DNA from: Flavobacteriales bacterium TMED96
GTDB taxonomy: Bacteria > Bacteroidota > Bacteroidia > Flavobacteriales > Flavobacteriaceae
NCBI GenBank assembly: GCA_002171475.2
Contig: NHEX02000027.1
Coordinates: 27,912-84,482, forward strand
DNA: 56,571 bases
Direction of reading: 5' to 3'
Notes under the pieces: model-generated
What the model was told of the DNA's origin: nothing
The model's input: only the letters and a program-made list of their open reading frames with translations
Databases searched by the model: none
Part shown: piece after piece, positions 1-51,443 of the stretch
Numbering within the stretch: position 1 is the stretch's first letter
Layout of the letters: each line of letters begins with the position of its first letter
Made by a program: the position numbers and the translations under genes

Positions 1-190
1 GATTAATTACACAAATAAGATAAAATCAGAAAATTCTACTCTTAAAAACAACCCAGAATTAGAAGATGTCAAAAAAGAGGTCATTGAACAAAAATCATCA
101 ATGCTTGATTCAGAAATTAAAGAAGTTTCTTCTTTCTCACTAGCAAGTGTGGAAAAAAAAAAAGACTTTCAAAGAAAGAAGAATAACTAA
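1..190 (+). CDS. dnaX: DNA polymerase III subunit gamma/tau, C-terminal part, upstream frame (5' end outside window; this frame stops at TAA 188-190)
   Basis: Frame starting at nt 2 reads INYTNKIKSENSTLKNNPELEDVKKEVIEQKSSMLDSEIKEVSSFSLASVEKKKDFQRKKNN*. The 'SSFSLASVEKKK' motif resembles the region preceding the C-terminal domain of flavobacterial DnaX. Confidence 0.7.
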   Translation, partial: INYTNKIKSENSTLKNNPELEDVKKEVIEQKSSMLDSEIKEVSSFSLASVEKKKDFQRKKNN

Positions 191-584
191 CGATTTATCA
201 AAATCAAAAACAACAAGTTATAAAAGTGATTTTACTCAAGAAGAGTTGGATAAGTGCTGGAATAATTACCACAATATTAAATTACAAAACAAAGAATTTA
301 ATATAGCCTCTTTATTAAAAATAAGTAAACCAAAAAAGTCAGGAAACAATATCGGATATAGTGTTTCTTCAGATATAAACAAAAAAGAATTGGAAGTTGA
401 ACTTCCAAAATTATTGGAGTATATTAAAATCTCCCTAAAAAATGATTCAATTGAGATAAAAGTTGATTCAAACATTTCAATTAAAAAAAATATCATCTAC
501 ACTCCAACAGAAAAGTTTGAAAAATTAGTTGAATTGAACCCATCGCTTGAAAACTTAAGAAAAAAACTGGATTTAGATTATTAA
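147..584 (+). CDS. dnaX: DNA polymerase III subunit gamma/tau, C-terminal domain, shifted frame relative to upstream part
   Basis: ORF contains 'FTQEELDKCWNNY...' and ends 'TPTEKFEKLVELNPSLENLRKKLDLDY', typical of the flavobacterial DnaX C-terminus. It joins the upstream frame at an A11 tract (153-163). Confidence 0.75.
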   Translation: MWKKKKTFKERRITNDLSKSKTTSYKSDFTQEELDKCWNNYHNIKLQNKEFNIASLLKISKPKKSGNNIGYSVSSDINKKELEVELPKLLEYIKISLKNDSIEIKVDSNISIKKNIIYTPTEKFEKLVELNPSLENLRKKLDLDY

Positions 585-43994: not shown

Positions 43995-45416
43995 ATGAAA
44001 AATTGTAAATTTAATACGAAGTTATTATTTATAAAATTTGTAAAAAAAAAAAAATTGATGAAAACTTGCTTAAAATTTTGGTTTATCCTTCTAGCTTTTT
44101 TTTCGTGTAAAAATGAAAAAAAAACAAACACTGTTTTAAATGAATTTAAACATCGTCCCGTTAATCTTATTTCACAACTAAATAAGGTATCTAACCAACC
44201 TGTTAATTTCGTTGAAGCTGCTGAAAAAAGTATAAATGCTGTTGTTCATGTAAAAAACACTTCAACTGTTTCAGATGATTTTTCTTATTTGGATTATTTT
44301 TATGGAAGAAACAAAAGCCCCCAAAATAGAATTGGGACTGGTTCTGGAGTAATTGTATCACCTGATGGTTTTATTATAACTAACAATCACGTTATTGAGG
44401 ATGCAACTAGAATTGAAGTTACAACTAATGAGAATATAAGATACCAAGCAAAACTTGTGGGTACCGATCCATATACAGACATTGCAGTACTAAAAATTGA
44501 AACAAAAAAGGTTCTTCCCTATCTTTATTTTGCAGATTCAGATAATACAAAAATTGGTGAATGGGTTCTTGCTATAGGAAATCCATTCAACTTAAATTCT
44601 ACAGTTACTGCTGGAATAATTAGCGCCAAATCTAGAGATTTAAATAAACTTGATAGAAGGAATCAGTCTTTTATTCAAACCGACGCAGCTGTAAACCAAG
44701 GTAATAGTGGCGGTGCATTGGTTAATTTAAATGGTGAACTAATCGGAATTAATACAGCAATTACAACCATTTCAGGAGGTTTTGAAGGTTACTCTTTTGC
44801 TGTACCAAGCAATATAGCAAGAAAAGTTTTCGAGGATATAATCGAGTTTGGAACAAATCAAAAAGGCATGTTGGGTGTCCAGGGATTTGCTATTTCCCCA
44901 GAATTTGAAAAATTCATAAAAGAAAATAAGATTAAACAATCAGAGGGCTTTTATATTAGCAAAGTATTAGAAAATATGGGAGCTTTTAATGCCGGAATTA
45001 AAGAAGGTGATATTTTAATTTCTGTAGATGATATCAAAATTAAAAAGTTTTCAGATTTGACAGGATATCTCGAAAGCAAAAGGCCTGGCGATAGAGTAAC
45101 ACTTGGGTTTTTTAGAAATGATATTAAAAAATATTTAAAAGTAAAATTAGAAAAAACAAAAACTGTAGAGTTTTTAAATATGACTCTTTCTAATTTAACA
45201 AATAAGGAAAAAGAAGATTTAAAAATTAAAAGTGGATTAAGAATTGTAGATTCAGGAGAATTTTTAGAAGGTCAAATTGAAAACAATTCAATTTTAATAG
45301 ATATTAATGGTAATGTAATTGATGCCGTTGATCAAATTTTACAAATTAACCCCAATAGTGTAAGATGGATTACATATATAAATCCTAATGGAGAAAAAAT
45401 TCGATTAAGATTTTAA
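43995..45416 (+). CDS. HtrA/DegQ-like serine protease, predicted lipoprotein (likely start ATG 44058)
   Basis: 'MKTCLKFWFILLAFFSCKNEKK' lipobox; 'GSGVIVSPDGFIITNNHVIEDA', 'TDIAVLKI', 'QTDAAVNQGNSGGALVNLNGELIGINTAI'; PDZ domain. Confidence 0.94.
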   Translation: MKNCKFNTKLLFIKFVKKKKLMKTCLKFWFILLAFFSCKNEKKTNTVLNEFKHRPVNLISQLNKVSNQPVNFVEAAEKSINAVVHVKNTSTVSDDFSYLDYFYGRNKSPQNRIGTGSGVIVSPDGFIITNNHVIEDATRIEVTTNENIRYQAKLVGTDPYTDIAVLKIETKKVLPYLYFADSDNTKIGEWVLAIGNPFNLNSTVTAGIISAKSRDLNKLDRRNQSFIQTDAAVNQGNSGGALVNLNGELIGINTAITTISGGFEGYSFAVPSNIARKVFEDIIEFGTNQKGMLGVQGFAISPEFEKFIKENKIKQSEGFYISKVLENMGAFNAGIKEGDILISVDDIKIKKFSDLTGYLESKRPGDRVTLGFFRNDIKKYLKVKLEKTKTVEFLNMTLSNLTNKEKEDLKIKSGLRIVDSGEFLEGQIENNSILIDINGNVIDAVDQILQINPNSVRWITYINPNGEKIRLRF

Positions 45417-50888: not shown

Positions 50889-51443
50889 ATAGCAATTCGA
50901 AGAAGAAGATCAAATAGACCTGGTAGGATAATAAAAGAAAACCCGCATCTTATCAATGAAAAAATTCTGGCTAAAGAAGTTAGATTGGTTGGTGATAATA
51001 TTGAAACAGGTGTATACAGTAAACAAAAAGCACTTCAAATGGCGAGTAACTTAGATTTAGATTTAGTTGAAATTTCCGGAAAAGCTATTCCACCTGTATG
51101 TAAGATTTTGGAATATAAAAAATTTCTATACGAACAAAAAAAAAGAGATAAAGCTATGAAATCTAAAACAACGAAAGTTGTTATTAAAGAAATTAGATTT
51201 GGACCACAAACAGACGAACATGATTATTTGTTCAAAAAAAAGCATGCTGAAAAATTTTTAAAAGATGGTGCAAAACTAAAGGCTTTCGTTTTCTTTAAGG
51301 GGAGGTCAATTATTTTCAAAGAACAAGGACAAATTCTTTTATTACGATTAGCGCAAGACCTAGAAGAGTTTGGAAAAGTAGAGCAGTTGCCAAAATTGGA
51401 TGGTAAGAGAATGATTATGTTTATTAATCCAAAAAAAAATTAA
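50889..51443 (+). CDS. infC: Translation initiation factor IF-3 with a probable non-canonical ATA start
   Basis: In-frame sequence (ATA)[41 protein letters not shown]...[27 protein letters not shown]; '[40 protein letters not shown]'. The ORF-track TTG start (50985) cuts conserved N-terminal residues. Confidence 0.9.

Follow-up and report, generated by a model that had tools for sequence, protein, structure and literature searches.

The dnaX frame break

The window analysed here, a 56,571-nucleotide stretch of contig C14 in the assembly of Flavobacteriales bacterium TMED96 (G000), begins within a dnaX gene whose C-terminal frame splits at a homopolymer of eleven adenines (A11; positions 153-163, plus strand). 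This raises the question of whether A11 is a recoding site that divides the gene between the gamma and tau proteins, as a sequence-only reading had proposed, or an extra base with no such role. The relevant features are as follows (L001 is the label of the dnaX locus).

C14:27860-27869 (L001:4361-4370), 42-51 bp upstream of window base 1: conserved A10 tract of dnaX
1-152, plus strand: fast-evolving linker leading from the conserved A10 tract, the putative slippage site, to A11
2-190, plus strand: terminal part of the upstream (zero) frame of dnaX; stop codon TAA at 188-190, gene start outside the window at C14:26815
153-163, plus strand: A11 run and frame break; A10 in G006 and G003, A9 in G004 and G005, all four in frame
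164-584, plus strand: C-terminal (tau) portion of dnaX, read in the +1 frame; stop ends at 584

When extended with the flanking bases of C14, the upstream open reading frame encodes a 428-aa DnaX (L001:3316-4602). Both frames match the NCBIfam DnaX model NF011531 co-linearly: the upstream frame over positions 1-419 (E = 4.9e-141), so that the N-terminal clamp-loader region of DnaX is present, and the downstream frame over positions 477-612 of 614 (E = 6.2e-19), which is the tau C-terminal part. The upstream frame also matches TIGR02397 (9.3e-108, 360.6 bits against a cut-off of 250). The NCBIfam models carry the identification because a Pfam search with the two window pieces of dnaX returned no credible family; the Pfam gamma3 model had no match in the G000 genome. 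The sequence-only reading was thus right to call the gene dnaX, to place its split at A11 and to assign the out-of-frame part to the tau C-terminus. An RNase P RNA (RF00010, 185.8 bits) lies immediately upstream of dnaX on the minus strand (L001:2936-3227).

The A11 site in congeners

Seven genomes of the genus were sampled, five of which include this part of dnaX (G000 and G003-G006). In the four congeners dnaX is a single open frame of 570-598 aa that reads through the aligned site, and because the gene is intact in all four, the frame break in G000 is, on this comparison, more than chance. Since the congeners carry A9 or A10 there and stay in frame, A11 is interpreted as a one-base gain, seen only in the G000 assembly. 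Removing one A, as in the congeners, produces one continuous dnaX, in agreement with the earlier reading; the same reading had named beforehand an in-frame site in relatives as evidence against recoding at A11, and four congeners have one.

The closest comparison is between G000 and G006, whose DNA is 95.35% identical over 13.8 kb. Among the 18 runs of at least eight bases listed in this stretch, an indel is found only at the dnaX A11 and at a T9 in the 3' end of ppk, and G000 is one base longer at both. The ppk-like difference (T9 at 1684-1692, T8 in G006) alters the last residues only and was set aside as a gene-end difference. The downstream frame of the G000 dnaX contains no extra stop and no indel, so that no erosion is visible beyond A11. 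Its codon changes relative to G005 (36 synonymous and 39 nonsynonymous) are similar to those of G006 relative to G005 (34 and 36). Because of this lack of erosion and the G006-like divergence from G005, the dnaX frame is presumably either intact in truth, or broken very recently, or still in use.

Homopolymer runs across the contig

To place the break in context, the open reading frames of G003-G006 were compared with all of C14 (133 kb). Three breaks were found within conserved genes of G000, each with one base more than in relatives: the dnaX A11 and an A10 run in each of two genes outside the window, which we take to be clpC and shikimate kinase from our own reading of the intact G003 sequences, with no database match behind the names. 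An additional A in the A10 at C14:13368-13377 (L132) interrupts the clpC-like gene (848 aa in G003) near codon 85; the run is in frame in G003, G004 and G005, and one base shorter and in frame in G006, G002 and G001. In the shikimate-kinase-like gene (181 aa in G003) the extra base falls in a T10, which is A10 on the coding strand (C14:90411-90420, L134), and the run is one base shorter in G003, G005, G006 and G001. Over the covered sequence, 3 of 9 A/T runs of at least ten bases are broken in G000 vs 0 of 29 in the relatives (hypergeometric approximately 0.01, one-sided, by our own arithmetic).

Long A runs are themselves ordinary in this genome: its coding DNA has 24 runs of nine or more As, compared with 30.3 +/- 3.4 when synonymous codons are shuffled, and A9 and A10 runs are common and only mildly depleted. 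Because such runs are common in the coding DNA of an AT-rich genome, the A11 run itself is less remarkable than its frame break. Two further runs lie within the window. An A9 at 51431-51439, at the end of an IF-3-like gene, exceeds by one base the sequence aligned to it in G003 and G005 and was set aside as a gene-end difference. An A13 at 44042-44054 directly precedes a likely ATG in the first part of an open frame and is probably part of a gene leader. The contig also contains single Ns. They number 3-22 per 2 kb as far as the last base ahead of the window, are absent throughout the 56-kb window and are patchy behind it; this pattern suggests that the G000 assembly may be of mixed origin.

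The extra A of A11 is therefore most likely a homopolymer-length error of the G000 assembly, which the sequence-only reading had listed as the main alternative to slippage. Otherwise it would be a real and recent +1 length allele, a possibility to which we give clearly less weight. In clpC and shikimate kinase a substitution has also removed an interruption of each run, and for this reason real +1 alleles, or runs that are truly hypermutable, may be involved. Frame breaks at runs of ten or more As in this assembly should not be taken as biology without reads.

The conserved A10 tract upstream of the window

The A10 tract of the G000 dnaX lies just past clamp-loader domain III. It is read straight through, and stops in the other two frames follow 2 and 7 codons behind it. 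A survey covered 115 dnaX loci of Bacteroidota in which the C-terminus could be recognised. A run of A9-A13 was found shortly after domain III in 105 of them, and it was exactly A10 in 86; about one tenth of the loci have no such tract. In 99 of the 105 loci with the tract, each of the two frames not leading to tau meets a stop within 10 codons; for control codons, a single shifted frame was closed within ten codons in 54%. G000 is one of the six exceptions, and solely on account of A11, which puts the C-terminus in another frame. In a second sample, A9-A10 was present in 13 of 14 Bacteroidia and in approximately 11 of 26 genomes from other classes of the phylum. An alignment of relatives, which the sequence-only reading had proposed as a check for a conserved A-run and frame break, thus gave a divided answer: a conserved long A-run does exist, but it is the A10 that shortly precedes the window, and A11 shows no conserved frame break.

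The tract is also present in 20 loci at 45-67% GC, which have no other run of nine or more As in the gene. In most GC-rich loci it is written with AAA, even though lysine is more often encoded by AAG in the preceding part of that gene. Across the 105 genes, only 8 other runs of at least nine As occur in the approximately 1.6 kb around the tract.

The frame that leads from the tract to tau is variable. Among the 105 loci tau lies in the zero frame in 74, in the +1 (or -2) frame in 26 and in the -1 (or +2) frame in 5, the last group including G000. A tree built from 127 DnaX N-termini requires at least 25 changes of tau phase, against a mean of 33.5 and a minimum of 27 for shuffled labels; the phase is therefore inherited but drifting. 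Two Aquimarina species, a close pair, differ in tau phase at the dnaX A10: L055 reads straight through and L062 needs +1. A similar second break occurs in a Bacteroidales dnaX (L125), whose zero frame passes A10 and continues to 525 aa while the end of the C-terminus has to be read in a different frame.

Proposed gamma/tau switch and alternative explanations

On this evidence, the G000 dnaX is very probably an ordinary Bacteroidota dnaX with a gamma/tau switch at the upstream A10, and A11 is an unprogrammed extra A in a lysine run of the tau-only part. RNA polymerase would slip at A10 to give messages with differing numbers of As, of which one frame would continue to tau and the other two would stop within a few codons to give gamma. 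A11 would be a second run of lysine codons in the tau-only part, its extra A marking no programmed site. Slippage at A10 in Bacteroidota is inferred from the conservation of the tract and from the known Thermus mechanism. Slippage by RNA polymerase is favoured over a one-directional ribosomal shift because the run is conserved, the phase is free and the other frames are closed; Antonov et al. 2013 apply the same reasoning (PMC3711429).

Slippage is the mechanism relevant to the dnaX family, as had been suggested. The placing of the gamma/tau switch at A11 is not supported: the run sits 68 codons beyond the conserved A10, is in frame in G003-G006 and has no conserved break. The zero-frame product ending at A11, described as gamma-like, would be gamma plus the fast-evolving linker and not a gamma cut at the usual place. 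A route in which slippage at A10 would let ribosomes read the window's downstream frame was considered and ruled out, because a stop in that frame lies just 5' of A11 (the frame opens at 144).

If A10 slips, the window A11 should slip too, and a real +1 allele would still yield some tau. A11 could accordingly be genuine, with some messages returned to the tau frame by slippage of RNA polymerase (net -1 or +2 A). Precedent exists in Blochmannia vafer and B. floridanus, where a poly-A frameshift lies in the tau-only part of dnaX and rescue by slippage has been proposed (PMC3017870), and an A11 of C. rodentium slips at 20-25% (PMC4256274); the uneroded downstream frame of dnaX also fits. However, A11 is found in the G000 assembly only, the breaks are absent from the four sampled relatives, and three breaks per 133 kb would be a heavy load for a probably free-living bacterium, which makes the explanation unlikely. 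Its extension to the whole contig is similarly doubtful: the extra As in dnaX, clpC and shikimate kinase would all be real +1 frameshifts, tolerated via slippage, and the dnaX tracts, acting in series, would produce gamma, a middle form and tau. If true, slippage-borne +1 frameshifts would represent an endosymbiont-like tolerance in a probably free-living cell.

Ribosomal frameshifting of the E. coli type at the A runs is highly improbable. The codons are slippery and A-rich, and E. coli dnaX shifts by -1 on A_AAA_AAG (PMC3711429), but tau is found in each of the three phases, which a single directional shift would not serve. Furthermore, F. johnsoniae scarcely uses the anti-Shine-Dalgarno sequence (PMC8710568), one stimulator in E. 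coli dnaX. A search for downstream stimulatory RNA structure at A11 and the tested tracts gave energies no better than shuffles (z from -0.40 to +1.40). The least probable explanation is that A11 is a programmed second switch giving a middle-length DnaX beside gamma and tau: at least nine As are kept here in all five sampled species of the genus, but the site is in frame in the other four, E-K-K-K encoded in an AT-rich genome (AAA 2878, AAG 605) gives rise to such runs, and a run at this site was not found outside the genus in the surveyed genes.

The conserved upstream A10 matters more than A11. It suggests a long-standing RNA-polymerase slippage switch for the clamp loader in Bacteroidota, which would leave the annotated frame at liberty to drift with respect to tau. 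If the slippage switch is true, many annotated 'short' DnaX proteins of the phylum (approximately 360 aa) would be one product of a two-product gene.

Comparison with known systems

The G000 frame break resembles the dnaX of Blochmannia, in which a single-indel poly-A frameshift lies beyond the gamma-producing site, in the part of the gene that serves tau only, and leaves the remainder intact (PMC3017870). It differs in that the Blochmannia frameshift is common to two species; the one described here is found in one assembly and is possibly an error.

In Thermus thermophilus, transcriptional slippage at an A9 in dnaX has been shown experimentally (PMC1088944, PMC5009743), and tau and gamma are made from one gene. 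The Bacteroidota A10 has the same layout, a poly-A run after the clamp-loader part with nearby stops in both other frames. The two differ in that slippage is experimental in Thermus and inferred for Bacteroidota, where A10 is the usual length and the phase of tau varies. The window A11 has no Thermus-type role, as it lies 68 codons past the conserved tract and is in frame in four of four congeners.

A literature search for slippage in the dnaX of Flavobacterium or Bacteroidota found nothing beyond Antonov et al. 2013, whose supplementary species list fell outside the search. That paper reports 17 two-ORF dnaX genes, nine of them with 10 As, for which transcriptional realignment was inferred (PMC3711429). 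The likeness lies in a dnaX with A10 where tau requires a frame change; the difference is that here the tract is seen in the majority of the sampled Bacteroidota, and chiefly in uninterrupted genes, which a frameshift finder would miss. The A10 tract thus looks to be spread more widely in Bacteroidota than in the literature searched, uninterrupted genes included.
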